DNA of 64,000 nucleotides. Origin: Mesostigma viride. Taxonomy: Eukaryota > Streptophyta > Mesostigmatophyceae > Mesostigmatales > Mesostigmataceae. The notes under the pieces are model-generated. The model was not told where the DNA came from and searched no databases. It saw only the letters and a program-made list of their open reading frames with translations. The translations under genes and the position numbers were made by a program. This document shows positions 8,641-62,867 of the stretch, one piece after another. Position 1 is the stretch's first letter. Every line of letters starts with the position of its first letter. Where the stretch lies: assembly GCA_009746045.1 (NCBI GenBank), contig RPFO01000082.1:4461241-4525240 (forward strand), read 5' to 3'.

Positions 8641-8643
8641 ATC

Positions 8644-10074: not shown

Positions 10075-13000
10075 TCATCGAATGGTCTCTACCATGCGGA
10101 ATTCTGGCGACGTGGCTTGCAGTGGAAGGCCCATGGCCTTGCCAAAATCCCTGCGTACGGCAAGGCAGGAGAGTCCAGTGAAAGATTACAGAAATATTAT
10201 TACCTAGGAATCAATCAGATATGGTGACAAGCCAGAGAAGCATCAAGCGACGATACCATGATAACTAGGCAGTAGCCATGCATGCTCACACAAAGCAAGT
10301 GCATGGGCTTGTGTGTGTTTGGGAGGGGGTGAAGACGGAGGACAGCGGCAGCAAGCAAAGCCAAGGGACAGCACGAAAAGTAAACTCCTGCATTCACTGT
10401 CTGGCAGGCAGCCTTACTGATTAGCACCCTTGCAAGAGAGACATCGCCGTCATGGCAGGATATAACACCGTCGTCATCATCGCACACACATTGCAATTAC
10501 TAACCACCTCTAGCCACTAGCATCCACGCAGGAGGAACTAGAGGCATGAGAAGCACTAGAGACATCAAAGGCACTAGAGGCGCTGGAGACTGTAAGAGGC
10601 ACTACTTGAGGGGCTACTAGAGACATAAAAGGCACTAGAGGTGCTGGAGAGACTTCTTGAGGCACCCAAGGCACTGGAGGCGCTGGGGACTTATAGGGGC
10701 AATAGACTACTAGAGGCACCAGGGCCTACCAGACACGAGAGAGGCGCTAGATAGACAACTAGACGCACTAGAGACTAGCGGAAGCACTCACTGGCGCGGC
10801 CCGTAGACCTTGATCTGCCGTATGTGGGTGTCGCGCCCGTTCTGGTGGTTGGATAGTATGGCCAGCTGAAGGAAGAAGGCCCGGAATGACTCGCTGGTGC
10901 ACAAGCACAAGCACCAGAGTATGGCCAGGACAAAAACAGACGAAAATAGACACACCAACACACCACGGCAAAGGCATAACGATGAAATAAACTCAGACTA
11001 CAGACTCAGCAATGCCAATACCATGGGCATGCATGTTGGGAAGGTGCATGCTAGGACTATGCGGTGGGACCAGATGCTTACTTCTTAAATGTTTACAGTT
11101 TACTACATACGATGTAGTAGTGTCACTTGTCTAACTGGAATGCCGTGCCCTCTACCCATGGCACCCTTGGCCACGCAAGACAAGACATGATAACAAAGAA
11201 TTGTACGTTAATGATACAAGAAATGTTAGATACAACACCGGCACTGGCAGCGGCGATGGCTGTGTGAGGCCATGTGACGACGCTCGGAAAAGCCACAGCA
11301 CCAGATGCAAGCGAGGTGGCCATATCTGCAACGATTGAGGAATCCTCTATACAGGGGCTAGGGACGAGCAGGCTTGTTGACACTTGACAGATTACAAAAA
11401 CAGGTATGCTTGTGCACATCCATGCATGGTTTTACACCACACACCGTCCGGCTGGCCATCCACCCAACGGTGAAACGATACTCCCAGGATTTGAAAAAAG
11501 ATACCGCAGGTGGCCGTAAACCAGCACCGAAGTTGGGGGATGAAGCAACCACAACAGAGGGGTTCAATGGCACGGCCTGGGGGTGTTGGCGGGCCATGCC
11601 ATGCATGTTCCCACCCATGCGGGCGCTCGCCATCTCCATGCAGGGTTTGCAGGTAGCATGATGGGTGGCACGATGAAAGGCAGGTGTGAACCTGCCACTG
11701 CTTTGTGCCCGCCAGGATTATGAGTAAGCTGGCTAACGTGGACTCCTCAGTACCCCCTACACCCACTACACCTAAGCGCATGGATTGTGCATGGACCCAT
11801 GGTGGCCTACGTGGACTCGTTGTGCCAATATCTATGGATTCAAATATACTAACATATATTGATTCACACATAATAGTCTATATATTATCTCCTTTATAAA
11901 CAACGTGGCTCACACAGACTTTTGTTGCCCAGAATAGGTAAACATATGAGCCTATATATAGCTTCCATACAAACAACGTGGCTCGCGTGGACTTGTTGTT
12001 GCCCAGAATAGGTAAACATATGAGCCTATAAATAGCTTCCATACAAACAACGTGGCTCACGTGGACTTGTTGTTGCCCAGAATAGGTAAACATATGAGCC
12101 TATATATAGCTTCCATACAAACAACGTGGCTCACGTGGAATCGTTGGGCGCGAGCGGGATCTCGATCCACCCCACGGGCTGCTCCACCTCCACCAGCTTG
12201 ATCTCCTGCAGGGTCCCAGCACCGAGACGTGCCGGGGGGTCCAACACGTGGGGCCCAACCGGTGGTCCCCGCACCAGGGTGTGCCGGTGGTTGGTGTGAC
12301 GCACACGAAAACGGCATTCACGCGATCAGCACCAAACAGACCACGCTAATGAGAAGGCGTCGAGCATACGCGCTGTCATGAGCGGGCACAGGGGGGAGGC
12401 CAGGCACCCTGTGCCGTCCCCCCACCAGGACCAGCACGCTGAGCACAGTACATGCAAACGAGCAGCACAGTACAGTAAGTGCAGACTAGCCTACTGGGCC
12501 GACACCGTGTCAGGGCAGTCATGTGCGGCCACAGTGTGTACGGTTCCTGTGCGGTCAAGCCATGCCTTGTTGGAATATCGTGAGAACAAGGCAAACGGTG
12601 TAGATAAACTGTGAGGCCAAGCAACCAAGTATTTGGCGCTCTAGTAAACAAGAAACGGATAATCAGCAACAACGCCTCGTGCATTTGTCTGGCGCTTAAC
12701 TCATCCACCCTACCTCCGGGTGACGGTTGCTTAGCAAGGACTTTGCCATAACAAGTTGCAGTCTGAGGTACACCCTGCCAGGCAGACCTTATTACAGCCT
12801 GCATCAAACAACAATCATGACAACCCATTCCAGAAACCACCATAACCCTTAATCAAACGCACTATCCCTGGCAGGGGTGCCAAAAGCAGCCGTCTATGAA
12901 CACAAACTGCAAACCATTCGTGAAAAGCTGCCAACCTTCTTTCGACCACCTAACTGTTCAGAAAATGAATCAGGCCCACATTTACAGGACAACTGCTGAG

Positions 13001-15946
13001 AGCCCTTGCCACCCGAACACTAGCATAACAACTGGACAGGGCCCCCATTGCTCATGTGGTCACCTGCGCATCCGGCTTACCCACGTCATCCTTGGCGTAC
13101 CAGCTCATATGCTTTCTGGCTTTTTTGCTTGCCCCCCGCCTTGCTGATTTGCTTGTTTACTTACTCGCCTGCTTGCTTACCCCCTTCTGTGCTGAACCCC
13201 TCCCGCGCTTACCCCCCCGTTTGCTTGCCTGCTCGTATGCGTACTGGCACGCTTGCTTACCCGCACACTCGCTTACCCCCTGCGTCCCCTACCCACAAGA
13301 CTTCAAGTTTCAATGTGGCATGGCTTACCCGCAGGTCGACCAGGCTGTTCCCCCCCCGGATGGAGATCTTGCTGGGCGTGTAGCTCTCGTCCTTCTTGTA
13401 GTCGGCGTACACCGAGATCTCCTGGCGTTGCGCGTGGCAGTATAAATGACATATATGGCACACGCATGCGGCCAGACCATTACAGCTTGGTGATGGGTAG
13501 ACAGAGATCTCCTGATGTTGCGCGTGGCAGTGCAATAATGGCCCACACATGCGGCCAGCATTATGCTGCCTACTATTAATTACTAATCCATGATCAGTTA
13601 CCAAGCCATTACTAGGCCATTACTAAGCAACCTGTGGGGCGAAGGCAAGTATATATTATAAATCCAAGTGGCAGAACATGGTGAACGGATACACGCAGCA
13701 GGCGTGTGGCTGCAAGTAGACCAGCAAGCAGGCGTGTGGCTGCAAGTAGACCAGCAAGTGCGGATGCATCGGTGGCAAGACACAGGTGGCAGAATTGAGA
13801 ACATCTTACCGGGCCTGGGACGACGACGCACGAGCCATGTGCAATGTGCCAGACCGCCCTTAACATTTCCAACTGGCGCATCAGTAGCCTACCAGAGGTA
13901 TACGCTTGGACACCCACGAAATGTACATGAAGTCGTCAAGATGAACCGTTATGGTTAACCCGTCCATTAAACCGCCAATTACCCCGTCAATTAACCCACC
14001 AATAAACCCGTCAACTAACCCGTCAACTAACCCGTCAATGAACCCGTCAATGAACCCTTCTAGGATAGAATCGAACACATTGATGGGTGGACTAGCAATC
14101 AAGGAAGAGTACGGCATGGAACATGCGCTGCACGATGCAAGCACACTTTGGACCCAATGAACGATCTCGCGAGTTTGGGAGGCCATTGCATACGTGGACA
14201 TGGGCTCCACACGTGCCAACCACCTTGTGAACGCAGACCTTGCGCTGCATGGGGGTGACATCCCTTATGCACCGAGCATGCAGCCATCCCTCATCCACCC
14301 CAAACACAGCCATCCCTCAGCCACCTCACACGCAGCCATCCCTCATCCCCCCCAAACACAGCCATCCCTCATCCACCCCACAAACATGGAACCGTGCCGC
14401 CTGCCATTCGTCATCCACCCCACAACTCCCCCAAGTTGCCAACCCGTACCGTGATGCAGACCTTGCGCTGGAACTGGATGTTCACCAAGTGCGGCTGGGC
14501 ACCGTCTGACCTGCGAAGGGGGGCGGTGGGTGGGGGAACGGGTTCACGCCCATGCAGCATGCAGGGGGCCATGAAGGCAGCACCATCACCAAGGTAAAAG
14601 AGCAGGGAGGAGTAACTTTGAGGACTTCTTGCCTGGTTTATGCAACCTGCATGTCATGGGGGGCATAATGCAGGCGGGATTAAGCAGGGGAGATAATGCA
14701 GGGGATATAATGCAGGGGAGATAATGCAGGGGAGATAATGCAGGGGAGATATTGCAGGGGAGATAATGCAGGGGAGATAATGCAGGGGAGATAATGCAGG
14801 GGAGATATTGCAGGGGAGATATTGCAGGGGAGATAATGCAGGGGAGATAATGCAGGGGAGATAATGCAGGGGAGATATTGCAGGGGAGATAATGCAGGGG
14901 AGATATTGCAGGGGAGATATCGCAGGGGAGATAATGCAGGGGAGATATTGCAGGGGAAGTAGTGCAGGGAAGATTATGCAGGACAGAAATGCAGTGGGGT
15001 TGGACAGGCCAGTTTCAGCACAGCATGGGGTAGACATGGCCCACACGATTATTATTTGAGTGCAGCAGGTTTATAGGGTGTCATAACAATAAAAGCGCTA
15101 TGAACTAAAGAAAGGTGTCTGGTGTTTACATCAAACATTCTGCCAGGAGCACATGCCACCAAAACAGTCCTACTAAAAGGCATCAGCATATTAAGAAAGG
15201 CACGGCGTATTTCCTAGCAACACGTAGCAGCTTGCCATGGCCCTTGCCCATGGGGTATTTCCTAGCCGCACGTAGCCGCTTGCCATGTCCTTGCCTATGG
15301 TTTCTTGGCCCCTAATGGCGTGGCTCACAGCCTGTTTTCCGTACCCGTGCAGGCACGTGTGCGCGGCACAACACACCACTAGCATCTGCAACAGGGCGTG
15401 TGGGTGCTCAGGCGAGCATTTGCTTCTATAGTACGATGAATCCAGTAGTGGGATCAGATGAGCATGCCTACCCGACCGTCTCACCAATACAATAGCCTGA
15501 TCAAACGTTTAACAAGCATGGCTAAGGAAGATAAACATGCCTGCGACGCTGTTTCAGTTGCTTTGGCATGTTCTTCTGGTCAGCATGTCTGCATGTTACC
15601 TCCAGGTCCAGTCCTGAATTAACAAGCCGTGGGATGATGACGTGTCACGTACTGCCAATACGTGTCCACATTCCCGTCTCGAAGCAGCTCCACCCCGTTT
15701 CCAGGCTTGGCGCTGGTCACGCTCCAAACGGCCAAACCGCCAATTTCCCGCCTATCTGGGCTTTCCACCTCTTTCTGCGAAAATCATCGGCGATTTGGCG
15801 GCATCATTTCCCCCAATCCGCATGAAATGCGATACGTATAAGCAAATGGATCTATCGACAGCAAAACATGAGGCATTTGGCAAACCATGGACCTTTGACC
15901 AGTAATTATCTGCTCGGCAAGGTCATACCTGCAAAACCTTCACCAT
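10075..15946 (-). CDS. APC10: Anaphase-promoting complex subunit 10 (DOC1), seven exons
   Basis: Minus-strand exons: 15946-15929, 15774-15653, 14510-14450, 13421-13329, 12205-12135, 10893-10792, 10150-10075. All junctions are GT-AG and phases match, giving 180 aa (human APC10 is 185). The DOC-domain signatures are clear: [19 protein letters not shown] and [18 protein letters not shown], then [12 protein letters not shown], then [10 protein letters not shown], then [21 protein letters not shown]. The last exon ends in TIR, the Ile-Arg tail that docks APC10 on CDC27-type subunits. APC10 is a substrate-receptor subunit of the nuclear ubiquitin ligase that degrades cyclins and securin. The start is an ATG in a six-codon first exon in good context (CCGCCATGG); this exon is the least certain part. 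Without the last exon the frame would stop 24 residues early. Confidence 0.9.
10510..10760. repeat. Degenerate GGCACTAGAG-type repeat in the last APC10 intron
   Basis: Irregular copies of a roughly 15-20 base unit (AGGCACTAGAGGCGCTGG and variants) just downstream of exon 6. Confidence 0.5.
11893..12134 (-). repeat. 74-bp tandem repeat carrying copies of the APC10 exon-5 donor site
   Basis: Three units with 74-bp spacing lie directly downstream of APC10 exon 5 on the minus strand. Each contains a CCAC-GTGAGCC-like copy of the exon end and donor. The CAACGTGG word recurs at 11901, 11974, 12048 and 12122. Confidence 0.8.
13400..13565 (-). repeat. Duplication of the APC10 exon-4 acceptor region
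   Basis: 13402-13484 (exon start, acceptor and upstream intron) is repeated with changes at 13496-13562. Both copies share GAGATCTCCTG and GTTGCGCGTGGCAGT. Confidence 0.75.
13958..14060. repeat. 11-13 bp tandem repeat in APC10 intron
   Basis: Repeated AACCCGTCAAYTA-type units, about nine copies. Confidence 0.7.
14280..14390. repeat. Tandem repeat of about 27 bp in APC10 intron
   Basis: About four copies of a unit containing CAGCCATCCCTCATCC. A decayed copy of the exon-3 tail (GCAGACCTTGCGCTG) lies just to the left at 14233-14247. Confidence 0.6.
14676..14958. repeat. 15-bp minisatellite in APC10 intron
   Basis: About 18 copies of GAGATAATGCAGGGG with an AT/TT variant, between exons 3 and 2. 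Confidence 0.9.
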
Positions 15947-17194: not shown

Positions 17195-20100
17195 ATGGCG
17201 ACACAGTCAATGCGTGGGTTGACTGTTTTTATCACCGACGTCCGTAATTGCTCCAATAAAGAGCAAGAGCGCGCGCGGGTTGATAAGGAGCTTGCAAATA
17301 TTCGTACTAAATTCAAGAATGACCGGGTATGTGTAGCACTTTGTCGCTCGGGGAACTGATGGTTCGCACAAAGAATGTCGTGGACCTCGTAAGAATAGGC
17401 GGTGACCTCATCGTTTACTTGGCTTATACGTTTAAGCATCTCCTCAGTTCGTTTAATCATTTCCCCCTGAAAGCCTAAGTAGTAATACGTGTGCTTAGCT
17501 AAGCTGCTGTTTGGTCCCACTTCACGCAGGGACTCACGCCGTACGAGCGCAAAAAGTACGTTTGGAAGCTGCTGTACATTTACATGCTCGGGTACGACGT
17601 CGAGTTCGGGCACATGGAGGCGCTGGGGCTGATTTCGGCGCAGAAATATGCCGATAAACAGGTACGACTCTTGTTTGATGGAGTTGAATGTATGTATTAC
17701 ATTTCCGTAGAGGTGCCGCTTTTCTCCCTCTCTGGGGCATGTTATATTCTTGTGGTGGTAATTGACGCCCACCCTAGGCCCTCCCTGGCCATATCGATTG
17801 TTGCCCAATTGCTGCGGTGCGCTTGGGTGTGTTGTGGGTACCCACCTTTCTCGAAAATTCGGCGCTCACGCACTTGTCCCACCCAAATTCCAGACACAAG
17901 AACGCTCGCATGGCTCACTGTGACGTTGCTCATATATGACCAGGTGATACCCGGCTACTGGCTCGCCCGCTGCTGCCAACGCCAGTGGGCAAGCCAGTAG
18001 CAGTGCCAACGCCAGCCTGTGCGAGGTCGGATCGCGATGCCTTGCGTGTGCGTCCCGAGTCGCAAAAGATCTGTGATGACTCGTGTGTGGCTTGGCCGGT
18101 GTTGCCTTGGCCCACTCTGTCCAGGAGGGCACGTACCTGGGGTCCTCCCGGCTGCCACCCGGTGGTGGAGCCTCGATTCAGTACAGTAGATAGCTGGTGT
18201 AAAGCTGGGTGGGGATGTCAAGTCAGCATGCCCCTTACGTCCTGGGCGACACATGTGCTACCATGGTACCTAGTCAGCGCTGCAGCCGGGCGTGGTCCCT
18301 TGGGTCATGCGTGTGCAAGCGACATGCGTGCTCACCGAGCAGGGGTCGGCAGTGAGTAGCGATATCTGCAGGGAGGCGTAGTGCTGGAACAAAATCAGTA
18401 CATGATGGTCATCTTGGATGAAGCGCTAGAGTTCTAATTCCAAGTGGTCACAGGCAGCCAAGTCTCGCCCATCCTTCAGGCACTGTGCATGGCATTCCCT
18501 GGTCACTGTGCGTTGCGTCTACGGGTCACTCTGCAAGCCGGGTGACATGGTGGCTGATTGAACCCGAGCAATCGTCGGTGCATGCCTATTTTAAGCGAGG
18601 CGCAGGGAAACTCTCCTATCGCGCTTCCTCAGTCATGCCTGCCTTCACCCACCGCATCTCACGGATCATATGCTGGCCAGGAGCGACCGGATGTGTGATG
18701 GATTCGAGCGACCGGATGTGTGTGATGGATTTGAGCGACCGGATGTGTGATGGATTAGAGCGACCGGATGTGTGATGGATTAGAGCGACCGGATGTGTGA
18801 TGGATTAGAGCGACCGGATGTGTGATGGATTAGAGCGACCGGATGTGTGTGATGGATTAGAGCGACCGGATGTGTGATGGATTAGAGCGACCGGATGTGT
18901 GATGGATTAGAGCGACCGGATGTGTGATGGATTAGAGCGACCGGATGTGTGTGATGGATTAGAGCGACCGGATGTGTGATGGATTAGAGCGACCGGATGT
19001 GTAATGGATTAGAGCTACCGGATGTGTGATGGATTAGAGCGACCGGATGTGTGATGGATTAGAGCGACCGGATGTGTGATGGATTAGAGCGACCGGATGT
19101 GTGTGATGGATTAGAGCGACCGGATGTGTGTGATGGATTGTGTGTATGTTAGTGCTAGGATTATGTGGTTACTAAAGCAGTGCAGACAGGGTGAGTCGCG
19201 AATGAGAAGGGATGCGGATTGGGGGGCGAGCCGCTGACAAAGGCCGTAAGGCCACGCTTGCACCCATTGCAGCACCGCCAGCTAACCAAGCAACTCCCCA
19301 ACCCCCACGCCCCCTGCCATGTTGTTGCCCTACCCTTCCCCCCCGCCCCCCCCCCCTCGGTCAGGTGGGCTACGTGGTCACCTCGGTGCTCCTGAACGAG
19401 AGCCGGGACTTCCTTCGCCTGGTCATCAACAGCATTCGCAACGACCTCATTTCCCGGAACGAGACGTTCCAGTGCCTGGCGCTCACCATGGTGCGCTGTA
19501 TAAGATGGATAGTTTGAATTGCTTTCTGACGCCAGTATAGTTTATTTATGAGTAGTTATATATAGTATACCACACAGGGATGGGTCTATGTGCACGCGCG
19601 CACGTAGGCTCGAGTATTGTGAAATGTCATCCCAAAGCCCTGCGCGCACCATGGCGCGCTGGAAGTACATGCACAGGCATCTCTGTGCATGCACGCATGT
19701 GGTATCATTTCCCGGCTATCAAGAGCTATGGGCGGATCATAAGCCCCTAGTATCGCATGTGGTATCATTTCCCTGCTGTCAAGGGCTATGTGCGGATCAT
19801 AAGCCCCTAGTTCTTAGTTCTTGCTGTTTGCAGTCCTTGCTGCGCAGTGTTCGCAGACCCTTCCCAACATCTCCTGGGTCGGCACGGTGTCCCCAATGTC
19901 GGCTGCTTCCTTTTTTTTACTCACCAGTGGCGACGCAGTTGCCCTGGCTGTCGTTTGTCCCTGCCCCGCCCCCCCCCCCCCCCCCTGCAACCCACCAGGT
20001 GGGCAACATCGGAGGCAAAGAGTTTGCCGAGGCTCTCTCGCAAGATGTGCAGAAGCTACTGGTGCGTGCGACATTTGTTGAAGCAACGATCTCGAAACCC

Positions 20101-23100
20101 TACGCAGGAGTGTCGCGCATTAACCCCCCCCCCCCTGGACTTTGTCTCCCAGCCCGCCATGCGTATGGGCTCTATTTAAAAATTATTATTCTTTGAGTCG
20201 AGGTGATCCGCAGTCTCGATGGCAATCGATGCAGTAATCAGTCTTTGCTGTCCTGTCTTTTCTTCATTTCTTACTTTCCTTACTCCCTTGTCCCCATGTT
20301 GGTGTTGTCGATGTGTTATGTTCCGTTTGGGCGCACACGCTATGCACTGGAATGCCTGGTCCATAGTTTTCTTTTGGCAAGCAACTTTCATCGCCTGGGG
20401 GAACAGACTGTGCCGCCTTGGTTGCCCCCTTCTCATCAGATTGTGCTTGCACTTGCGTCCTCACCAGGCGTGAACAGGTCACATTTGCCGTGTGCGGCCA
20501 CCCCAACGTGGTCTTGTCATTTTACCCCGCCACCTGGTCAAACTGGTTGATTGCCTTAATATAATATAGAAGGCAACCAACTACCCTCTAGTTGCCTTCT
20601 TAACGCCTGTCCCCCTGCACGCCACCTGTGCGCGACTTTGTGTGCCACTCATGTGCCACTCATGCGCCACTCATGCGCCACTCATAGCCGCTCATGTGCC
20701 ACATGCATGCCATACTTCGCGCCGCCTGTGCACTCCCCCCCCCCCCCGCACATCGTGGACCCCCGGCAGCTGTCGAGTACGGCACGCCCCATCGTGCGCA
20801 AGAAGGCGGCGCTGTGCCTGCTCCGCTTGTTCCGCAAGAACAGCGACATCCTCATCGCCGACACCTGGTGGGTGGCGAGATAGTTTAGAAGGATCGAATA
20901 CTATTCTGATCGAATACTATGTTTATTTATGGGAATGGTACACCATGCGCTATGTTTATTTATGGGAATGGTACACCATGCGCTATGTTTATTTATGGGA
21001 ATGGTACACCATGCGCTATGTTTATTTATGGGAATGGTACACCATGCGCTATGTTTATTTATGGGAATGGTACACCATGCGCTATGTTTATTTATGGGAA
21101 TGGTACACCATGCGCTATGTTTATTTATGGGAATGGTACACCATGCGCTATGTTTATTTATGGGAATGGTACACCATGCGCTATGTTTATTTATGGGAAT
21201 GGTACACCATGCGCGGCACTGTGGCTTCTCTGCTTGTTCCGCGAAACCAGCAACATCCTCATCGCGGACACCTGGAGCGCCACGTTAGCCTGATAGCAAT
21301 AATTCCAGGTGGTGCCAGGGATAAAAGTATACTGGTACTAGTACACGGTCTCATTGATACATGTGCCTTCCATTTTGATGCGAGAAAGATTTTGCTTGGT
21401 CTTTGAAGTTCTGCCTGCGTGTGTCTGCTGCTCACCCATTGCAGCGGCCCTGACGCCATCCGCTGCCCGCGCGCGGTTGCCTTTGTCCTTGTTTCCGGCA
21501 TGCATCACATTCGCGTGCTGATGCTGGCGTCCGCAGGAGCGACCAGATGACCCTGCTGATGATGGAGAAGGACCTGGGCGTGCTGCTGGGCGTGATGAAC
21601 CTCATGATCGGCATCGCCACCGCGGGCTGCGCGGGCTACGAGGGTTGCGTGCCCAAGGCGGTGGCCGTGCTCGAGCGCCTCGTCCGGGGCATCGACATAC
21701 GGCCCGACTACACCTACTACGGGATACCCTCACCCTGGCTGCAGGCAAGCGGGCATAGGATAGGACATCCAAGAAGGATTGGTGCTAGTCTAGCAGGTCA
21801 GTTCTACAGGTACTGGGGGGTGCCCTCGTCCTGGCTGCAGGCAAGCGGGCATAGGATAGGACATCCAAGAAGGGTTGGTGCTAGTCTAGCAGGTCAGTTC
21901 TACATCTACTAGGGGGTGCCCTCGTCCTGGCTGCAGGCAAGCATACCCGCTATAGGACATTCTGGAGGTTCTTGTGTAAATCTAGGGCATCAAGGGCATC
22001 AAGGGCATCAAGGGGAATGCCACGTGGCATGGGATGCCATCTCCCTGCAGCAGGCAAGCGCGCCCAAATTAGAACATGCTTGGAGCTTGGGGGGGGGGGG
22101 GGGGGGGGCATGTAACGTGTCATGCAGCGGTCCACTTCTTGCGGGTTGCTCTGAATGGGGAACGTGAAGGGGCGAAAGAGTATGCTATGAATGGAAACAA
22201 GGAAAACCGTGAACCTCTCCTTGCTCCCAGGCAATGCCATCACCCCCGCGGCGGCTGCCCTGCTACCTGCGCTCATACTTTGGCCACAATGGCAGTGGTG
22301 GCTTGTGAGCCAGGTTGTGCGGGAGAGAGGAGCATGTCCAGGGGGCCAGTTTGTGAGCCGCATGTCTTGCATGAGCGGCCACTGTGTGTGAGGTCTGCCG
22401 CTGTCTTGGGCAGGCTTGCCCTGCGGTGATACGATCATGCTGGTTCTTTGCGGCACCTAGCTCCTGGTATGTGAGCGTGTTCTGGCCATGCCTGGGTGCT
22501 CGTGCCCCTCTCTGCTGGACCCCTGCCTTGTGCTAAATGGGTTCTCTCCATCTGCATGTTTGGAAGTCAAACCTGACCTGTGCAGTGCCTTGTGTGTTTT
22601 CTTGCTTAATGTGCGATCGTCCTTGGTTAACACTAGGGCCTCTCATGCTCGTGTCAACAATCATGCCATTGTGTTCCAATTATCCCCCCCCCCTTCCCCC
22701 CCCCCCCCCCCCTCCTCCCCCCCTACTTTTCCTCCTACTTGTCCAGGTGGCCACCATGCGTGTGTTGCAGCTCTTCCCCGTGCCTGAGGACTCGAAGACA
22801 CGCCGCACGCTCAACGAGGTAGGCTTTGCCACTCGCATGTGCCGCCCATGTGTAGTGGTTCCGGATGGTGGGCCAAAGGCTGTGGCTGTGGCTTGAAAAA
22901 TGCTCGGTGCAGAGTTAAGGGTGTAGGGTTCAGGGTTTCCCAGCTCAGGTGCGTTGGCATGCGCTCAAACATTAGTTGGCTTGTCATGGTTGTGCTGCCC
23001 TGGCCATGGTTGATCCCATAATGCATTCCAATCCCGCCCCCACACATCACGCTTCTCTTTGCCAGTCACTGATTCTTTTGTTTGCTTACTGTCTCCCCTT

Positions 23101-26100
23101 TCTTCTGGCTCGCGCCCAAGCTTGTCCTATTCTTTTGTTTGCTTACTGTCTCCCCCTTCTTCTGGCTCGCGCCCAAGCTTGTCCTATTCTTTTGTTTGCT
23201 TACTGTCTCCCCCTTCTTCTGGCTCGCGCCCAAGCTTGTCCTATTCTTTTGTTTGCTTACTGTCTCCCCCTTCTTCTGGCTCGCGCCCAAGCTTGTCCTC
23301 TTCTTTTGTTTGCTTACTGTCTCCCCCTTCTTCTGGCTCGCGCCCAAGCTTGTCCTATTCTTTTGTTTGCTTACTGTCTCCCCCTTCTTCTGGCTCGCGC
23401 CCAAGCTTGTCCTATTCTTTTGTTTGCTTACTGTCTCCCCCTTCTTCTGGCTCGCGCCCAAGCTTGTCCTATTCTTTTGTTTGCTTACTGTCTCCCCTTC
23501 TTCTGGCTCGCGCCCAAGCTTGTCCTATTCTTTTGTTTGCTCACTGTCTCCCCCTTCTTCTGGCTCGCGCCCAAGCTTGTCCTATTCTTTTGTTTGCTTA
23601 CTGTCTCCCCTTCTTCTGGCTCGCGCCCAAGCTTGTCCTATTCTTTTGTTTGCTTACTGTCTCCCCTTCTTCTGGCTCGCGCCCAAGCTTGTCCTATTCT
23701 TTTGTTTGCTTACTGTCTCCCCTTCTTCTGGCTCGCGCCCAAGCTTGTCCTATTCTTTTGTTTGCTTACTGTCTCCCCCTTCTTCTGGCTCGCGCCCAAG
23801 CTTGTCCTATTCTTTTGTTTGCTTACTGTCTCCCCCTTCTTCTGGCTCGCGCCCAAGCTTGTCCTATTCTTTTGTTTGCTTACTGTCTCCCCTTCTTCTG
23901 GCTCGCGCCCAAGCTTGTCCTATTCTTTTGTTTGCTTACTGTCTCCCCCTTCTTCTGGCTCGCGCCCAAGCTTGTCCTATTCTTTTGTTTGCTTACTGTC
24001 TCCCCCTTCTTCTGGCTCGCGCCCAAGCTTGTCCTATTCTTTTGTTTGCTTACTGTCTCCCCTTCTTCTGGCTCGCGCCCAAGCTTGTCCTATTCTTTTG
24101 TTTGCTTACTGTCTCCCCCTTCTTCTGGCTCGCGCCCAAGCTTGTCCTATTCTTTTGTTTGCTTACTGTCTCCCCCTTCTTCTGGCTCGCGCCCAAGCTT
24201 GTCCTATTCTTTTGTTTGCTTACTGTCTCCCCCTTCTTCTGGCTCGCGCCCAAGCTTGTCCTATTCTTTTGTTTGCTTACTGTCTCCCCCTTCTTCTGGC
24301 TCGCGCCCAAGCTTGTCCTATTCTTTTGTTTGCTTACTGTCTCCCCCTTCTTCTGGCTCGCGCCCAAGCTTGTCCTATTCTTTTGTTTGCTTACTGTCTC
24401 CCCTTCTTCTGGCTCGCGCCCAAGCTTGTCCTATTCTTTTGTTTGCTTACTGTCTCCCCCTTCTTCTGGCTCGCGCCCAAGCTTGTCCTATTCTTTTGTT
24501 TGCTTACTGTCTCCCCTTCTTCTGGCTCGCGCCCAAGCTTGTCCTATTCTTTTGTTTGCTTACTGTCTCCCCCTTCTTCTGGCTCGCGCCCAAGCTTGTC
24601 CTATTCTTTTGTTTGCTTACTGTCTCCCCCTTCTTCTGGCTCGCGCCCAAGCTTGTCCTATTCTTTTGTTTGCTTACTGTCTCCCCCTTCTTCTGGCTCG
24701 CGCCCAAGCTTGTCCTATTCTTTTGTTTGCTTACTGTCTCCCCCTTCTTCTGGCTCGCGCCCAAGCTTGTCCTATTCTTTTGTTTGCTTACTGTCTCCCC
24801 CTTCTTCTGGCTCGCGCCCAAGCTTGTCCTATTCTTTTGTTTGCTTACTGTCTCCCCCTTCTTCTGGCTCGCGCCCAAGCTTGTCCTATTCTTTTGTTTG
24901 CTTACTGTCTCCCCCTTCTTCTGGCTCGCGCCCAAGCTTGTCCTATTCTTTTGTTTGCTTACTGTCTCCCCTTCTTCTGGCTCGCGCCCAAGCTTGTCCT
25001 ATTCTTTTGTTTGCTTACTGTCTCCCCCTTCTTCTGGCTCGCGCCCAAGCTTGTCCTATTCTTTTGTTTGCTTACTGTCTCCCCCTTCTTCTGGCTCGCG
25101 CCCAAGCTTGTCCTATTCTTTTGTTTGCTTACTGTCTCCCCTTCTTCTGGCTCGCGCCCAAGCTTGTCCTATTCTTTTGTTTGCTTACTGTCTCCCCCTT
25201 CTTCTGGCTCGCGCCCAAGCTTGTCCTATTCTTTTGTTTGCTTACTGTCTCCCCCTTTCTTGGCTCGCGCCCAAGCTTGTCCTATTCTTTTGTTTGCTTA
25301 CTGTCTCCCCTTCTTCTGGCTCGCGCCCAAGCTTGTCCTATTCTTTTGTTTGCTTACTGTCTCCCCCTTCTTCTGGCTCGCGCCCAAGCTTGTCCTATTC
25401 TTTTGTTTGCTTACTGTCTCCCCCTTCTTCTGGCTCGCGCCCAAGCTTGTCCTATTCTTTTGTTTGCTTACTGTCTCCCCCTTCTTCTGGCTCGCGCCCA
25501 AGCTTGTCCTATTCTTTTGTTTGCTTACTGTCTCCCCCTTCTTCTGGCTCGCGCCCAAGCTTGTCCTATTCTTTTGTTTGCTTACTGTCTCCCCCTTCTT
25601 CTGGCTCGCGCCCAAGCTTGTCCTATTCTTTTGTTTGCTTACTGTCTCCCCCTTCTTCTGGCTCGCGCCCAAGCTTGTCCTATTCTTTTGTTTGCTTACT
25701 GTCTCCCCCTTCTTCTGGCTCGCGCCCAAGCTTGTCCTATTCTTTTGTTTGCTTACTGTCTCCCCCTTCTTCTGGCTCGCGCCCAAGCTTGTCCTATTCT
25801 TTTGTTTGCTTACTGTCTCCCCCTTCTTCTGGCTCGCGCCCAAGCTTGTCCTATTCTTTTGTTTGCTTACTGTCTCCCCCTTCTTCTGGCTCGCGCCCAA
25901 GCTTGTCCTATTCTTTTGTTTGCTTACTGTCTCCCCCTTCTTCTGGCTCGCGCCCAAGCTTGTCCTATTCTTTTGTTTGCTTACTGTCTCCCCTTCTTCT
26001 GGCTCGCGCCCAAGCTTGTCCTATTCTTTTGTTTGCTTACTGTCTCCCCCTTCTTCTGGCTCGCGCCCAAGCTTGTCCTATTCTTTTGTTTGCTTACTGT

Positions 26101-29100
26101 CTCCCCCTTCTTCTGGCTCGCGCCCAAGCTTGTCCTATTCTTTTGTTTGCTTACTGTCTCCCCCTTCTTCTGGCTCGCGCCCAAGCTTGTCCTATTCTTT
26201 TGTTTGCTTACTGTCTCCCCCTTCTTCTGGCTCGCGCCCAAGCTTGTCCTATTCTTTTGTTTGCTTACTGTCTCCCCCTTCTTCTGGCTCGCGCCCAAGC
26301 TTGTCCTATTCTTTTGTTTGCTTACTGTCTCCCCCTTCTTCTGGCTCGCGCCCAAGCTTGTCCTATTCTTTTGTTTGCTTACTGTCTCCCCCTTCTTCTG
26401 GCTCGCGCCCAAGCTTGTGCTGTTCCTCTCGTCCCTCCCCCCCACACACCTGCCTCTCCCCCTCGTTATTCACAGATCCTCAAGCGCATTGATTCGTGTT
26501 GTGTTGCATGTGTTTCCCCTTGCCTTGGCGGCCACAGATCCTCAAGCGCATCCTGCTGAGCACCGAACCTGTCAAGAACGTGAACAAGAACAATGCCTTC
26601 CACGCCATCCTGTTTGAGGCGCTCAGCCTGGTATGGGAAATGATAGTGATAACAATAATAATGCCAATAACGAACGATAATGTACAGTAGTACATAAAAG
26701 CAGTAGTAAAACAAGAGCAACACCTTTCTGTAGTAGGAAAACAAGAGTGACACCTTTCATGCCATCCTGTTCGAGGCGCTCAGCCTGGTATCAGGGGAAA
26801 GGCCACATTCTGCTTTTTGCCAGGATGATGGAGATCCAAAGGCACTCCACCTGGTATCGGGGCAAGCATAGAACGGAGCGTGTGTCTTTGAGCTGTTTGT
26901 GCAAGGCTAGGTTGGGATGGCGCTGAGCCTGATTTGGAGAAAGGCTGGGACGTTCCTGTTGTGTGTCGTAGGGTATAACATTCTGCTTGTCTTTGTTACA
27001 AGCGCGTAAGGAGAAAGGAAAAAGCGATGTTTCCTGTTTAGCATTGGTCTGCCGCCAGACCCTGCTTCCCCAGAGAGCTGGCAGGCAATTGGCGTTTTTT
27101 ATAGTCCTGTCTCATCCTGCAGTCCTTGATTAGCTGTAGGGTTACAAGGGCCACCTGTACGAGGTCACCGCCTCTTGGGCCCCCAAGCCTGATTCTTAGA
27201 AGGTGAGAATAGCAATGCTAACAAGGTGGTGGGCTTCCTGTGCTGGGCGACATGGGTGACATGCTCCAGGTCATGCACCTCGACTCGGACCCGGATCTGT
27301 TCAAGCAGTGTGTGCTGCTGCTGGGCAAGTTCATCTCGGCGCGGGAGCCAAACATCCGCTACCTGGGCCTGGTACGTGGCCGCTTGTAGAACCTGAGCCC
27401 TTGTCACAAGGTATCGCTAGTAGCCACGGAACATCCAATATTAACAAGATTAAAAAATTATGATAATAAACATGATTATCGTGTGCGGAAGTAGCAATAA
27501 TAGTAGTAATTTTGTTGCCGACTCGGGTACTGTGATAATGGGCCATGGGTTTGTGAATAGGACAGATGACTGTGTGTCTGCCAGAAGCTGTGAATCCACA
27601 TCATCACTATCAAATGTTGATTCATCGCCACAAGGCAGAGAGGATGAATGAAAGGGTGTTGGGTGGGCCAGACGCAATGGGATAAGTGCAGGTTTCCGTC
27701 CTTAAATAAGCAATAGCACCTCCCCTGTTTCATCGCCGTTTTTTTCCCTCCTCTCATTCATGTTTTCTCACCATTCCGTCCCCCGCGCGCTCTTGTTGTT
27801 TCCCTTCCCATCACCCTGCCGCTGCCCATGCCATTGCTGGTGCCCACCATGCCTCCGCTGCGGTCGCCGTAACCGCGCTGCTGTTGCCGTAACCGCGCTG
27901 CTGTTGCCACTGGCATTGCCAGGAGTACATGGGCCAGCTGGCACTGGTGCCCGACATGCTGGACAACATCAAGAAGCACGAGGCGCAGGTGGTGTCCACA
28001 CTCAGGGACCCGGACATCAGGTGGGTGACGGGTGGCAGTCATCAAGATGGCTTATCATATCAGGTGGTCCGATTGGCGTACCGTACACGCTTGTCATGTC
28101 ATGGGATGCTATCGAGTGATCGATGCGATGACCCGATTGGCGTACCGTACACGCTTGTCATGTCATGGGATGCTATCGAGTGATCGATCCGATGACCCGA
28201 TTGGCGTACCGTACACGCTTGTCATGTCATGGGATGCTATCGAGTGATCGATCCGATGACCCGATTGGCGTACCGTACACGCTTGTCATGTCATGGGATG
28301 CTATCGAGTGATCGATCCAATGACCCGATTGGCGTACCGTACACTCTTGTCATGTCATGGGATGCTATCAAGTGATCGATCCGATGACCTGATTGGCGTA
28401 CCGTACACGCTTGTCATGTCATGGGATGCTATCGAGTGATCGATCCGATGGCCCTATTGGCGTACCGTACACGCTTGTCATGTCAGATGACCCTATTGGC
28501 GTATCAGGTAATCAGATCAGGTGGTGGTTCCTGGGACTGAAAATTACCACTGTAGCAGCCGTGGGGGGGAATTTCGGGTGGCAGAAGGTGGGGTGTTGGA
28601 GGGGCAGAAGGTGAGGTGTTGACCAAGCTTTCAAAAGGTTGACAACTCCGCCTGTCGTTTGTCGCCTGTGTTGCTTGTTGGCGTGTAGGTGCCTGTTGCC
28701 CACGTTCATTTCGGCTCGTTGCCTGCGTGCATGCCACTGACATGGGCCAATTTTGTCCAAGGATCCCCTTGCCTGCACACCTCTTGTGCGCAGCTGTGGT
28801 TTTCCGTGTTCAACCCCTTGCCTGTTTGGCTCGCACTGCATACATTCCTTTGTTGTGTGCTCACTTGGCACGTTTGTTCTGTTCTTACACGGTGGATTGT
28901 TGTTTGTTGTTTGCTCACCTCTCATTCTCCTTCTGCTCTCACCCTGCGCATTGTCTCTTGTCCTTGGCTGCGTGTGCCAGCATCCGGCGGCGCGCGCTCG
29001 ACCTGCTGTACACCATGTGTGACGGCTCCAACGCGCGCGGCATCGTGGAGCAGCTGCTCTCGGTGAGCGCGCGAACACACATCTTTTTTTTGGTTGTGGG

Positions 29101-44100: not shown

Positions 44101-45967
44101 GCAGCATTTGCTGAGAGTGTGCTGGTTTTTTGCACATGACGTCACCGCCTCTGCACATTTCCTACGCTGACCATCCTATGGCTGATGCCACCCTGCCTCC
44201 CCTGCATGAGAGGATATACTGGCCCCACCTATCATGTGCACAACCTACGGCCCACACTGGACTAATTTGTTCTCCACCACTGCTCTAGTCCTCACGCGAC
44301 GTTGGACCACCGGGAATAGTTGTCTCACTTAATAGTAGCCTTTCATCTGCCCCACCTGTCATCCTTACTGGTAGCCTTTCATCTGCCCCACCTGTCATCA
44401 ATATGCGCCCCCCCCCGCCCCCCCACCCCCATTGTGCAGGCCAACCTGTGTCTTCTGCTGCCCATCGTCTCCTCCGTGTTCATGGTCCCCGTGTCCATGG
44501 CCTCGAGCGAGTTCTTCGGGCGGTGGAAAGCGGCCGCGGGCCCCCCGCTGAAGCTGCAGGAGACGCTGCGGGGCACCAAGCCGATGCCGGTGCCGTCGCT
44601 CAAGCAGCTGCTGAGCAAGCTGCGGCTCGGGTTCATCCCCGGGCTGGACCCCAACCCGAACAATCTGGTCGCTGCCAGCCGCGCGATCAGTGAGACCGGT
44701 GGGGAGAACTTTGTGCTGGTGGGTGGTAGTGACATTTGCCAGAAGTGTCTATTTTGCCAAATGTTTTGGGGCTTTGTGTTGGTAAGCGATTGGGCGATGA
44801 TGGCTTAAGGGAGTAGCTTGTTGCCAGGAAACGTGTGGGGCTTTGCTAGAATGGGGCAAAGCCACCCCTTCTGTGAGGGGTGACCCCCACGAAGCCTGGT
44901 ATAATGGTCACGGTCACTAACATGGTGGCTGTAATGGTCACCATCAGACGAGGGGTGGCCCTCCCGTGTTGGTGAGTGTTTGGGAGGTGGCGGGGGTGGG
45001 ACTGTGTTGGTAAGTGTGGGACGTTGTGCTGGGGAGTGTCGGGGCGGCGATGATAGCCAGGAAAGGCGGTGATATCGCAAAGATTGTAAATATAATCTGG
45101 AAGTGATGTGGGCTGGTGACCTTCGCCGGAAGTGAGTAGGCGGTGGTGTCCACTTCATGAGGTCAGGTGGTTTGCATCCCTCCCGTTTCAAAATAGGCTT
45201 CGCATTCATTCCGAAGAAGGGGTTTCCGTTTGCCTTGGAGTCGCGTGAAGGAATGCGCGTGCCCTGGCTTTGTCAATAGGGGTGCTTGCCCTACGAATAG
45301 CATCGGTGCACCTGTGGGTCCACTTGTGATGCGGTGGTGGATCTCTCAGTGTTTGTTGGCTTCATAAGGAAGGAAGAAAGCAAGTAAGTAGGCAGTTTTG
45401 GTTACTTTTTCCTGGTGCGACCTTCAGTTTGCCCCTGTCTGGCTCGTTCTGTTACCAGGTTCATCCATCTCCCCGTATTTGTCTGTTTGCCACGGATGGG
45501 TATGAGCCTGGCTGTGCCTTCGCAGTTGGCAACAACCTCTGTGTGTATCCGCCAGACTGTCCTTGAAACTTTGAGGACCTGCTCTTTAGAGTGATGCCGT
45601 ACATCCGCTAATTCACAGAGCTGATGGCCACTTTTGGAAACTATATCTTATGATTGTGCACTGATTTCTTGAACATCCTCTGGGCATGGCCCGCCGCCTC
45701 CAGGTGCGCATCGAGACCGATCCGACCAATGACACGCAGCTCCGCTTCACGGTGCTGACCGACCACCAGTACACGAGCCTAGGGCTAAAGGATGTGCTGC
45801 TTGACCAGCTGATGCCCAGCGGCTACATCACCGGCCACTACGCGCCAAAGATCAGCCGGTCGGCCACAGGGTCGAGTAGCACCGTGGCGGCCCCCATGGC
45901 TAGCACGGTCAGCCAGTCGCCATCCCTCCCGGCCCTGCCGGATGGCTATGGCAACCCATTCTTGTGA
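17195..45967 (+). CDS. AP2A: AP-2 complex subunit alpha (alpha-adaptin), 24 exons
   Basis: Exons: 17195-17326, 17530-17661, 19365-19490, 19999-20061, 20770-20867, 21537-21744, 22747-22818, 26538-26630, 27270-27371, 27923-28020, 28981-29062, 29535-29623, 30400-30505, 31186-31251, 31940-32046, 33319-33420, 34630-34759, 37740-37889, 38629-38859, 39748-39837, 42724-42891, 43579-43665, 44440-44718, 45704-45967. Together they give 1,024 aa in one frame, close to the family's usual length. The trunk (1-602) opens [14 protein letters not shown] and has the basic patch RKKYVWK (51-57; a PIP2-contact region in animals) and [11 protein letters not shown]. The hinge (603-729) holds a clathrin-box-like LLGDLL and two DPF motifs (713-715, 722-724). 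The ear (730-1024) keeps [11 protein letters not shown]. The protein ends NPFL, an EH-domain-type NPF motif. AP-2 selects cargo for clathrin-coated pits at the plasma membrane. Intron 6 is GC-AG; all others are GT-AG. Coding is 11% of the span. Confidence 0.95.
18685..19140 (+). repeat. 25-bp minisatellite in AP2A intron 2
   Basis: About 18 copies of a unit built on GAGCGACCGGATGTGTGATG, with 27-bp variants carrying one extra TG. Confidence 0.9.
19695..19815 (+). repeat. Two-copy repeat in AP2A intron 3
   Basis: Two copies of about 56 bp (both with GTGGTATCATTTCCC and GCGGATCATAAGCCCCTAG). Just upstream, 19638-19662 echoes the exon-3 tail and donor (CACCATGG-GCGC). Confidence 0.7.
20918..21214 (+). 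repeat. 33-bp minisatellite, nine perfect copies, in AP2A intron 5
   Basis: Exactly 9 x 33 bp, each containing TTTATTTATGGGAATGG. Because 33 is a multiple of three it gives spurious long ORFs. Confidence 0.95.
21214..21275 (+). pseudogene. Degenerate copy of AP2A exon 5 (3' half) inside intron 5
   Basis: Aligns with 20808-20869: both contain CTGCTYxGCTTGTTCCGC followed by AACATCCTCATCGC/GACATCCTCATCGC and GACACCTGG. The copy has lost the donor (CTGGAGCG instead of CTGGTGGG). Confidence 0.8.
21722..21945 (+). repeat. Tandem copies of the AP2A exon-6 end plus its GC donor
   Basis: The exon tail CCCTGGCTGCAG and the donor GCAAGC recur at about 21833 and 21929 within near-identical blocks of about 105 bp, with a further decayed CTGCAGCAGGCAAGC at 22042-22056. 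Confidence 0.85.
23068..26417 (+). repeat. 57/58-bp satellite array, about 58 copies, in AP2A intron 7
   Basis: Near-identical pyrimidine-rich units (TTTGTTTGCTTACTGTCTCC, then GGCTCGCGCCCAAGCTTGTC). They differ mainly by four versus five C in one run, which sets 57 or 58 bp. Long repetitive frames of more than 1,100 codons run through it in all plus frames; none is a gene. Confidence 0.97.
26471..26490 (+). repeat. Duplicated acceptor and start of AP2A exon 8
   Basis: CACAG-ATCCTCAAGCGCAT occurs here and, as the true exon start, at 26533-26551. Confidence 0.85.
26756..26795 (+). repeat. Duplicated tail and donor of AP2A exon 8 in intron 8
   Basis: Copies 26602-26640 with three changes (GCGCTCAGCCTG-GTAT retained). 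Weaker copies follow at about 26846 (CACCTGGTATC) and 26919 (GGCGCTGAGCCTGAT). Confidence 0.85.
28057..28505 (+). repeat. 64-bp minisatellite in AP2A intron 10
   Basis: Six to seven copies; each has GATTGGCGTACCGTACAC and GTCATGTCATGGGATGC. Confidence 0.9.
29601..29830 (+). repeat. 68-bp tandem repeat spanning the AP2A exon-12/intron-12 border
   Basis: Four copies of the exon end GACCTGTCATG and donor GTACGGG, with donors after 29623, 29691, 29759 and 29827. The first copy gives the conserved reading (LSWYIDAVL) with exon 13. Confidence 0.9.
30118..30357 (+). repeat. 7-bp microsatellite (TGACCAC)n in AP2A intron 12
   Basis: About 34 essentially perfect copies, ending 42 bp before the exon-13 acceptor. 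Confidence 0.95.
32115..32637 (+). repeat. 37-bp minisatellite in AP2A intron 15
   Basis: About 14 copies built on CCCCTTGTGGGCCTGCTGTG plus TAAGCCTCGCGTCCCTT, with scattered substitutions. Confidence 0.9.
33390..34085 (+). repeat. Graded series of AP2A exon-16 tail copies in intron 16
   Basis: The true exon end (GAGCAGCAGGTGCTCGCCG, TTCAAGCG, donor GTGAGT) is followed by copies at 33494-33540, 33595-33635, 33708-33745, 33943-33985 and 34065-34085, each less similar than the one before. Confidence 0.85.
33793..33920 (-). mobile_element. Retroelement fragment in AP2A intron 16
   Basis: Shares AAACCTTCACCC..ATG and GGCTTCT.TCACTGCCGC with the inverted fragment at 5402-5490, preceded on the left by an AT-rich tail. 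Confidence 0.5.
35758..35925 (+). repeat. 33-bp repeat in AP2A intron 17
   Basis: Five copies of a unit with CCCTCAACACTGCCCGCC and CCTGCCCTCACGCTG. Confidence 0.9.
35991..37709 (+). repeat. 8-bp satellite (TTGGACCC)n, about 215 copies, in AP2A intron 17
   Basis: 1,719 bp with a single substitution visible (36216, T to C). As 8 is not a multiple of three, every plus frame reads the same octapeptide DPWTLGPL and the minus frames read GSKGPRVQ. The array ends 30 bp before the exon-18 acceptor. Confidence 0.98.
39838..42042 (+). repeat. 45-bp satellite, 49 copies, each with the AP2A exon-20 tail and donor
   Basis: Exactly 49 x 45 bp. The last 27 bases of each unit match the last 27 of exon 20 (GAGGACCCCTACATACAG and variants), and the next unit begins GTGCGTGG like the true donor. 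In the exon frame every unit carries two TAG stops. Variants: GAAGAC/GAGGAC, TACATG/TACATA/TGCATG/TGCATA/AGCATG. Confidence 0.98.
42275..42608 (+). repeat. 9-bp pyrimidine repeats in AP2A intron 20
   Basis: About nine CTTCCGCCT units, then about 27 CTTCCCTCT units, ending about 115 bp before the exon-21 acceptor. Confidence 0.95.
43300..43480 (+). repeat. Scattered copies of the AP2A exon-21 tail and donor in intron 21
   Basis: True border GCGCAGGCGCAG-GTATTGG (42880-42898). Look-alikes: GGCCAGGGGCAG-GTACGGC at 43304-43322 and CACCAGGCGCAG-GTATGTC at 43461-43479. Confidence 0.65.
44760..45045 (+). repeat. Scattered copies of the AP2A exon-23 tail and donor in intron 23
   Basis: True border TTTGTGCTG-GTGGGT (44710-44724). 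Copies: TTTGTGTTG-GTAAGC (44773), CCCGTGTTG-GTGAGT (44963), ACTGTGTTG-GTAAGT (45001), GTTGTGCTG-GGGAGT (45023). Confidence 0.7.
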
Positions 45968-57453: not shown

Positions 57454-57474
57454 ATGGTCAAGATGTCATGCCCT

Positions 57475-57640: not shown

Positions 57641-57835
57641 TTCGAGTCGTTCAGGATGATGAATATGAATTGAGATGAAAATGTGTAGCCTTGTGCATTG
57701 AAATTATGGCTGGCTTACGTGTAGAGCGATTAGATGACCTAGACGGAAACAGCTTGCTTAATCAGGGCGTGTGTTTCGAGCCTAACTGGCCGGGAGTGTC
57801 TAGTGGTTGCACAATAGGACTATATTCTGATTTGG

Positions 57836-58048
57836 CACGCCGCAAAGGTGAAAACCATTTGCGTTGAGTGCCGGTCGGCGGAAAACGCGATCTGCAAATG
57901 AATCCAGGCCGGAATCGAACTGGGGACCTCTCGCACCAACTTTTGCTGACCATAGGACGGACGTCTCCGGATCCTAGGGCATCGCCAACTGACACCTACA
58001 GCCTTCCGCAAAAGTTCTCAGGACTTTCCGGGGAGTGATGCAAGCCTC
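57836..58048 (-). mobile_element. SINE-like element, 5'-truncated, with 11-bp TSD
   Basis: Flanked by TAGGACTATAT at 57825-57835 and 58049-58059. Keeps the B-box-like motif and the common 3' end but lacks the first 100 bases. Confidence 0.75.
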
Positions 58049-58231
58049 TAGGACTATATCCTAGGACTACATCCTCGAATCCTCTGTGCATGCCTCGGTT
58101 CACTTTGTGGTAAGAAAGGCACCCGAACTTGCTTTTTACAGGTAAATTAACTATCCTTAAACATATCTGTAAAGGACACTTGTTCTCGTGCCTTCTTATC
58201 GAAAGGCCTGGGCTAGCACTGGCAAGCGCAT

Positions 58232-60667: not shown

Positions 60668-62867
60668 ATGCCAACCACAACCATGGATGGCTTCCTGGCT
60701 ATGCTAGAAGATGATCTCCGTATGTTGTCAACAGAGACTCGGAGAAAATATCCTCTAGTAAAGGAGGCTGCCGAAAGAGGTCTCTTAAAGGTATGGGTTG
60801 ACCTCAAGCACTGTAACGAATATTACGACTTGACATCGGGGGAAGGCTATGCCCTTCCTGTGTTTGGGTGTTACTGAATAGATTGTTTGCGTAGTGTAGA
60901 AATATAGCATTCAATCTGTGGAGCTCGCAGCGGCATTTTCCTGATCGGCAGCTTTTGTCGACTACATTTGTTGTGTTTCTTGTGGACCAGTTGCGCGCCC
61001 TGCCTGATGTAAATGCCATCAAGGACTGCGAGGACGTCCTGCGTCCTTTTCTTCTAGCCTGCGATACCAAGAATTCCAAGCTGAGTGCAGCCGGCTTGAA
61101 TTGCTTGCAACGACTCATCGCCCACAATGCCATCGCGCCATATTCAGTGGGCGCCATTCTCGCAACGTTGCGGCAGGTAAAACCGCTGTTTTGTGAAACG
61201 TGGCACGTGTCAATCCCCCATTTTCGTTACCGCGTAGATTTTGCTACCAGTAGATTTTGCCACGTTGCATCAGGTGTGTGTGCGTTGCAGTTCTTCTTCC
61301 AATGGCGTTATTCTTTGTAAAGGCCATGTTAGTTGGCCTGTTTGATGGATGACAATACTTTGCATGTAGTACAATGCTTCGCGTTGCTTACGGCACTGCT
61401 CCAGAACGGTACATCTGAAATGCTCTGTCGGCAATGGCAGCTACTCGTGGTAGCAGTTTCTGGGTTTGGATATAGGCCACACAAGCGAGATAGGCCAAAC
61501 AAACACAGAGAGGTTTGGCAAATAGTGTATAATAGAGCCATCCATTTGGCTGGATATGATAGGATGAGTCCAGCTCATTGATTGTACGCCCCACGTACTT
61601 TGCCATGTGATGAGTCCTGCATCCCTGCCTCGATTTTCTGAACTGTAATCGTGACGCTGTGTCAGCTGTACAGCACACTAGCGTGCGTGTTAACATGTTA
61701 ACATCGTAGCACGCTCTGTTCCATTCTATTGCGATCTTATTGCAATTTTGTAGCACGGCACCAGTGTTTAGGTGGCCGGATGCCAGGGCAACAGCTAGCC
61801 ACCTAGGCCACTGAGGGCATCCATTTCCCCCCTGTTCTGTAAATATTCTGACCACGTGGCACTGAGGTGCTTCCAGCAGGCACCACAGGGGCATCCCTAA
61901 GCATGCTCCTGAGCATATCGAGTTTGACGAGGCTCGGTATATAGAAGCTTCTTGTCAACGGGTTGCTTGGTGTCCACCTTGGCGGACCTCCCCCCCATTT
62001 GCTATCATTTGAGGGGGCAGGGGAGGGGGGGCAGAGCAGGGAATGAGAGGGGAGGAAAGGGAGGAAGGGGAAGGGGTATGACAAGAGGTTTGTACTGGGG
62101 AAGGGGCAATGCGGATTACGCGCAGATTGGATGCAGCCTTGAACCATGCTGTTACTCAGGCTAGCTTGTGTGGGCTGCCAGGAAGAGCCTCTTGATACAA
62201 CCATGGGCGCAGGATCTCGAGGCCGCTTCCAGAGGAGGTGGAGCCTCGCTAGCAGAGGAGGTGGAACCCTTTGTGCAAAACTGGAACTATATGGTCCCAG
62301 TACGAGGCCTTCAGCCCCTTTTGTGGCCTCGCGGCAGCCCACCGCATGGCGTCGTGTTCCTACAAACACCATCCCAATTACCATGTTGTTTCCAATATCA
62401 TTCCCAAGACATGCCTAGTTGGTCTCTCTTGCAGGCCGCCATGGTGAAGCTCCCTTTCTTCCATCCACAACGAGGGTTTGCTGCTGACACCTTCGTGCCA
62501 CGCCACTCCACTCCACGCCCGCTCCCACCCAACCCCTCCCTCTCGACTCCCTCCCTCCCCACACCAAGTGACCCCCCCCAAATATCCCATTATCGAATCA
62601 CCTCACATCAAATGACCCCGCACCAAGTGACCTAACACCAAGCGCCCCCAAATCAACTGGCCCCACATGAACCCCACACGCACACCAAATGGCCTCGCAC
62701 TTAATGCCCCCCCCCGCGCCCCCCCCGCCCCATCCAGCATGCCGAGTCCGGCGATGACGGCGCCAAGCTCAAGACACTGCCCACCATCCTCACGTTGCTG
62801 CAGTCATCCGCGCACCCGACCGACCCGGTAGGGATGCAGGCCCTGGACTTTCTGGGGGCGGGCCCTG
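60668..62867 (+). CDS. MON2: MON2 homologue, N-terminal exons (gene continues beyond the window)
   Basis: Three exons: 60668-60790, 60991-61176 and 62738 to 62867 (a donor at 62828 is an alternative end). The frame is continuous. The product opens with MLEDDLRMLSTETRRKYP, VKEAAERGLLK, then FLLACDTKNSKLSAAGLNCL and KLKTLPTILTLLQSSAHP, the order and spacing of the DCB region at the start of MON2/SF21-type proteins. MON2 is a large Golgi/endosome scaffold of HEAT repeats related to the BIG/GBF Arf-GEFs but lacking the Sec7 catalytic domain. It works with flippase and retromer pathways in endosome-to-Golgi traffic. Family members are about 1,600-1,700 aa, so more than 90% lies to the right. The ATG at 60668 is chosen as the first in frame; the second Met (60683) is possible. 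Confidence 0.75.
61255..61285 (+). repeat. Degenerate copy of the MON2 exon-2 tail and donor
   Basis: GCCACGTTGCATCAG-GTGTGT here against GCAACGTTGCGGCAG-GTAAAA at the true border (61162-61182). Confidence 0.55.

Follow-up and report, generated by a model that had tools for sequence, protein, structure and literature searches.

Decaying copies of preceding exon ends are common at the starts of introns in sampled genes of Mesostigma viride

Introns normally erase their own history, and a neighboring coding exon offers a nearly fixed ruler against which their growth could be read. A 64-kb stretch of the 440-Mb genome of Mesostigma viride (2,243 contigs), hereafter the window, raises the question of whether such a reading is possible. 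The original prediction described exon tails that recur, together with their 5′ splice sites, in the following introns of three genes, which we take to be AP2A, APC10, and MON2, following the labels in that prediction. Do these copies exceed chance, do they extend past the window, and is the exon/intron border itself what produces them?

Most of the copies in the window sit in AP2A (17195..45967, forward strand), whose 24 exons, once joined, translate cleanly to the stop codon. For each of its 23 donors, a 52-base query (the last 40 bases of the exon and the first 12 of the intron) was compared with the remainder of the exon's own intron and with the 22 other AP2A introns by alignment, giving a background of 506 mismatched pairs. 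Nine of the 23 donors score above the mismatched maximum of 26, and the summed own-intron score is 745, compared to a permuted mean of 385 (standard deviation, 28; maximum, 581; 20,000 permutations).

The copies, all on the forward strand, range from arrayed units to decayed remnants. The tail and donor of exon 16 (score of 79) belong to a 103-bp array of 2.2 copies at 33390..33614, those of exon 12 (59) to a 68-bp array of 3.4 copies at 29599..29830, and those of exon 6 (58), whose donor is GC, to a 96-bp array of 2.4 copies at 21708..21942, in which the scoring copy occupies 21804-21852. After exon 20 (68), a 45-bp minisatellite of 49.7 copies spans 39811..42045, and its unit consists of the last 27 bases of the exon and 18 bases of the intron. 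In each of these arrays, the copy is an adjacent unit. Copies of tail and donor also follow exon 8 (26715..26800; score of 66), exon 11 (29147..29178; 49), exon 13 (30701..30720; 30), and, in decayed form, exon 3 (19639..19661; 31). Exon 13 has a second, weaker copy closer to its donor. The 63-base copy of the exon 5 tail (21213..21275; 57) ends 1 base past the exon and is absent from the original list. Among the eight AP2A cases listed there as clear, those of exons 6, 8, 11, 12, 13, 16, and 20 stand, while exon 23 scores only 21; of the three described as weaker, exon 3 holds up, while exons 14 (25) and 21 (26) merely reach the top of the background.

Controls in AP2A gave no match for the reverse complement (0/23) or for exon ends aligned to the preceding intron (0/22), and a single match for mid-exon queries (1/23; exon 5, whose copy is long). 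One of the 23 acceptors exceeds the corresponding mismatched maximum: the intron end and the head of exon 8 recur upstream of the real acceptor at 26471..26489 (forward strand; score of 38). The introns are repeat-rich in general, as a downstream copy scoring at least 27 exists for 115 of 460 randomly placed intron 52-mers. Most of AP2A intron 7 is occupied by a 57-bp array of 59 copies (23072-26425), which closely precedes the acceptor-side copy just described, and intron 17 contains an 8-bp array of 216 copies (35980-37709).

APC10, on the reverse strand, bears out both of the copies originally reported for it, at two of three tested donors (the third scores 22). The tail of the exon at 14510-14450 recurs with its donor region at 14215..14247 (score of 34), and a 74-bp array of 3.4 copies at 11898..12146 includes the tail and donor of the exon ending at 12135 (score of 38), with a similar flank. 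One of three APC10 acceptors also has a copy, at 13497..13523 (exon 13421-13329; score of 34), and its upstream flank is similar as well. Like the acceptor-side copy of AP2A exon 8, it had not been predicted. The copy claimed for MON2 exon 2 scores 19, which is background, and neither of the two MON2 donors stands out (exon 1 scores 11). Elsewhere in the window, 400-8700 and 50400-58900 presumably hold non-LTR retroelement fragments flanked by ATTA-type repeats, as judged by eye, and near 54500-55600 there is a putative gypsy-like reverse transcriptase fragment. No Rfam family matched the 64-kb window at gathering thresholds, and no Pfam family matched two short exons.

Two further gene families were sampled outside the window, with kinesins found by Pfam PF00225 and CCT genes by PF00118. 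The kinesin sample comprises 20 analyzed loci from 40 listed kinesin stretches, with motor domains modeled by spliced alignment to a profile derived from kinesins of the same genome. The models contain 136 introns, and 89 remained after the removal of those that had doubtful junctions (a hand-made list), were shorter than 120 nt, or neighbored exons shorter than 40 nt. Three CCT loci provided 12 usable neighboring exon pairs out of 17, and the splice-site model for both families was trained on AP2A. GC stands in place of GT at 1 of 23 AP2A donors (exon 6, at 21745) and at 5 of the 89 donors in the kinesin set (L032-L051).

At the kinesin threshold, a score of at least 27, copies are found at 24 of 89 donors, compared to 25 of 7,832 mismatched pairs, and at 9 of 89 acceptors, compared to 14 of 7,832; the reverse-complement and mid-exon controls gave 0/89 and 3/89, respectively. 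Two kinesin paralogs, L041 and L044, carry the same unit and are not independent. The mismatched kinesin pairs indicate that the copies resemble their own exon and not the introns of other genes, and the similarity shared between introns of different genes that marks introner-like elements reaches the threshold in only those 25 of the 7,832 donor pairs. CCT genes have copies at 3 of 12 donors and 1 of 12 acceptors. An excess over random exon-intron pairs, which the original prediction had named as its test, is thus present in the sampled AP2A, kinesin, and CCT genes. In one kinesin locus (L038), a single intron repeats the 67-base exon before it in full, along with 6 acceptor and 8 donor bases, and also holds, on its acceptor side, a copy of the head of the following exon.

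Pooling AP2A, the kinesins, and CCT, with APC10 and MON2 left out, gives 124 introns with copies at 36 donors versus 11 acceptors (Fisher P of ∼7.5e-5). Donor copies start a median of 72 nt past the donor, 7% into the intron, and are unevenly spread along it (Kolmogorov-Smirnov [KS] P = 1.2e-13); acceptor copies likewise lie close to their own acceptor (median, 82 nt; KS P = 0.0015). About 3 in 10 introns in the sampled genes therefore start with a decaying copy of the preceding exon's end. Given the kinesin, CCT, and pooled counts, the pattern is common in sampled genes, extends past the window, and is biased toward donors without being confined to them.

The geometry of the copies indicates how some of them arose. 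Nine of 33 are exactly adjacent units across the donor, without a spacer and at shifts of 44 to 225 bases (the largest being five 45-base units), and these are therefore simple tandem duplications. Five arrays in the window include an exon tail and are minisatellites, with head-to-tail units of about 10 to 100 bases, and most copies outside these five arrays are not arrayed. Together with the position of the copies near the donor and the retention of the source donor dinucleotide in 24 of 33, these observations agree with the recurrent tandem duplication across donors that had been proposed. The proposed link to intron gain fares less well and is one of analogy only, as no new intron position was seen. 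The copies sit within existing introns with acceptors elsewhere, and the joined AP2A exons translate without them.

We consider the best explanation, with a probability of roughly 0.65, to be ordinary short tandem duplication in introns, seen through a fixed exon and splice signal and filtered by splicing. Introns would often undergo tandem duplication of short units, tens to a few hundred bases long, and a unit straddling the 5′ splice site would give the intron an additional exon tail and donor a short way past the real ones. Provided that the outer, first-transcribed donor is still usable, the event would be nearly neutral and the intron would grow; both the continued use of that donor and the neutrality are probable rather than observed. 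The intronic copy would then decay freely while selection holds the parent exon and donor, and because only the latter are constrained, old copies would remain recognizable chiefly along their exon-derived part and the splice signal, which would give the appearance of a decay series. When a unit straddles the acceptor instead, the additional acceptor would come to lie before the real one and would tend to be chosen by splicing. Most such events would therefore be purged, and this putative filter is the simplest account of the donor/acceptor asymmetry. Some units would expand into minisatellites. The observations behind this explanation are the mismatched-pair excess in three gene families, the donor/acceptor asymmetry, the adjacent young units, the noncoding decay, and the lack of a donor hotspot among young duplications. 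A sharp loss of similarity past the donor, the ends of the longest exon-tail copies close to the donor, a shortfall of simulations, and a hint of homogenization in L041 and L044, all described below, count against it.

The original prediction held that duplication is anchored at exon/intron borders, such that the 5′ splice site would promote breakage or copying and copied segments would end at the splice signal. We think this unlikely, in part from an equal-window comparison in which the ±30 nt around a position were used and a copy was sought within 400 nt, with 20 random positions in each of 106 introns as the control. At a score of at least 50, copies are found at 18 of 112 donors, compared to 12.4% of random intron positions (95% interval, 8.3 to 16.7%), and at 2 of 112 acceptors, compared to 13.3% of random positions searched upstream. 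At a score of 60, the corresponding values are 11 of 112 for donors, 11.3% for random positions, and 1 of 112 for acceptors. In a separate count, none of 111 exon-internal positions has a downstream copy in the same exon. The rate of young duplications at donors is thus close to that at random intron positions, with a deficit at acceptors. The comparison gives no evidence that duplication is favored at the border, and a donor hotspot as the main cause is unsupported by it. At a score of 30, which admits old copies, copies are found at 31 of 112 donors, above the random value of 17.4%; a donor excess at low thresholds only is expected if the exon side is fixed while intron-intron pairs diverge on both sides.

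The similarity edge at the splice signal speaks more in favor of anchoring. Past the donor, the copies form two groups, with 13 of 38 keeping similarity and 25 of 38 losing it no more than about 15 nt past the donor signal. In the latter group, the exon part is 83% identical, and identity drops from 0.51 at +7 to +11 to 0.32 at +12 to +16 and then to 0.20 to 0.29. The longest exon-tail copies, several of which measure 44 to 73 bases, all stop between +1 and +11. Simulations of plain duplication and decay do not fully reproduce the loss of similarity: background flanks are observed in 18 of 26 copies of a comparable subset (69%), compared to 27 to 60% under seven settings, and an earlier simulation predicted intron similarity in 65 to 76%, compared to 13 of 32 observed. 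However, settings with very frequent large indels (60%) or short units (53%) come close, and copies that appear to stop at the splice signal are to be expected where constraint ends. Acceptor copies behave alike. Against pyrimidine-matched controls, their upstream flank is above the 95th percentile in 4 of 12 and not above it in 8 of 12, and the loss is therefore not donor specific, which, in these small numbers, favors a boundary of constraint.

Across three simulations, pure decay against a fixed exon accounts for much, and not all, of the lost intron similarity. The lost similarity does not by itself exclude decay, since in the simulations the choice of copies that can still be detected inflates their apparent identity. 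A sharp similarity edge at splice signals is nevertheless not fully explained by duplication and decay. Our tentative and rather doubtful alternative is that the splice site itself sets the copy boundary, with duplication broken or templated at the 5′ splice-site edge or with the exon tail and intronic copy evolving in concert. An origin from spliced message was also considered and was dropped because most copies carry the donor. The AP2A exon 5 copy runs on, by eye, with about 5 bases resembling the start of the next exon.

Concerted evolution in its own right, in which slippage, unequal exchange, or gene conversion would homogenize the exon tail and its copies so that the exon part looks young and the flanks old, seems to us quite unlikely. 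It finds support in the paralogs L041 and L044, which share a 69- to 70-bp unit across the same donor (after the third modeled exon in L041 and the second in L044). The first two copies agree within each gene but differ between the genes at 7 sites, one of them in the exon tail, and the reverse pattern occurs at 0 sites; the unit has 4 other variable and 57 invariant sites. Judging from these aligned units, the pair hints at either homogenization or a separate re-amplification including the exon end. Separate re-amplification in each paralog explains this single gene pair equally well, and the identity of about 83% across the core of old copies argues against frequent conversion. Were the concerted reading true, synonymous sites near exon ends would be partly written by intronic repeats.

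The copies could instead be functional, maintained as decoy donors or pseudo-exons that regulate splicing, and the 24 kept donor dinucleotides might be taken as a sign of this. We find it very unlikely, as the dinucleotide is kept no better than its neighbors (25 of 31 for the second base; mostly 26 to 31 of 30 to 33 for the adjoining exon bases). Mismatches between exon and copy amount to 48 of 374, 50 of 383, and 80 of 382 at the three codon positions (12.8%, 13.1%, and 20.9%; P = 0.002), and 22 of 25 indels have a length not divisible by three. The equal mismatch at codon positions 1 and 2 and the frame-shifting indels indicate that the copies drift without visible coding constraint, and changes in the parent exon seem to have been mostly synonymous. 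That the copies reflect chance or an assembly error is scarcely credible: AP2A exons 14, 21, and 23 and MON2 do lie at or near background, but the strong AP2A cases exceed every mismatched pair and the permutation maximum, such cases recur in three gene families, the mismatched-pair controls in AP2A and the kinesins rule out chance for the strong ones, and the copies have diverged, whereas a collapse or join error would give identical ones.

If ordinary tandem duplication filtered by splicing is the correct reading, then the near fixity of the neighboring exon makes duplication events countable and roughly datable one by one. How well splicing tolerates extra donors, as opposed to extra acceptors, becomes readable from sequence alone. 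The same process offers a concrete route for intron lengthening, the birth of minisatellites, and the appearance of candidate decoy splice sites. A genome-wide test needs little beyond an annotation.

The accessible parts of the open-access literature yielded neither copies of neighboring exon ends as a general feature of introns nor a donor/acceptor difference in such copies, which is weak evidence of absence, as most subscription journals fall outside this scope. Internal gene duplication, treated by Gao and Lynch in 2009, can reportedly cross exon/intron borders and is said to be longer and able to alter gene structure; compared to those duplications, the copies here are mostly partial exon ends that die in introns. 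In green algae and plants, intronic minisatellites and other tandem repeats are reported to be commoner toward intron ends (PMC3887541), and the introns described here are similarly rich in tandem repeats. That survey, in its accessible parts, concerns repeat density and neither traces the units to the neighboring exon nor compares the donor side with the acceptor side. Tandem duplication in genes is also a known route to intron gain (PMC3443670, PMC2891723, and PMC4974935). According to the accessible parts of these reports, duplication of an exon segment yields two AGGT sites that delimit a new intron, and, as in M. viride, extra copies of splice sites arise and part of the original comes to lie within an intron. 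Unlike in those systems, the unit here straddles an existing donor, no new intron is made, and the copy decays within a lengthened intron.
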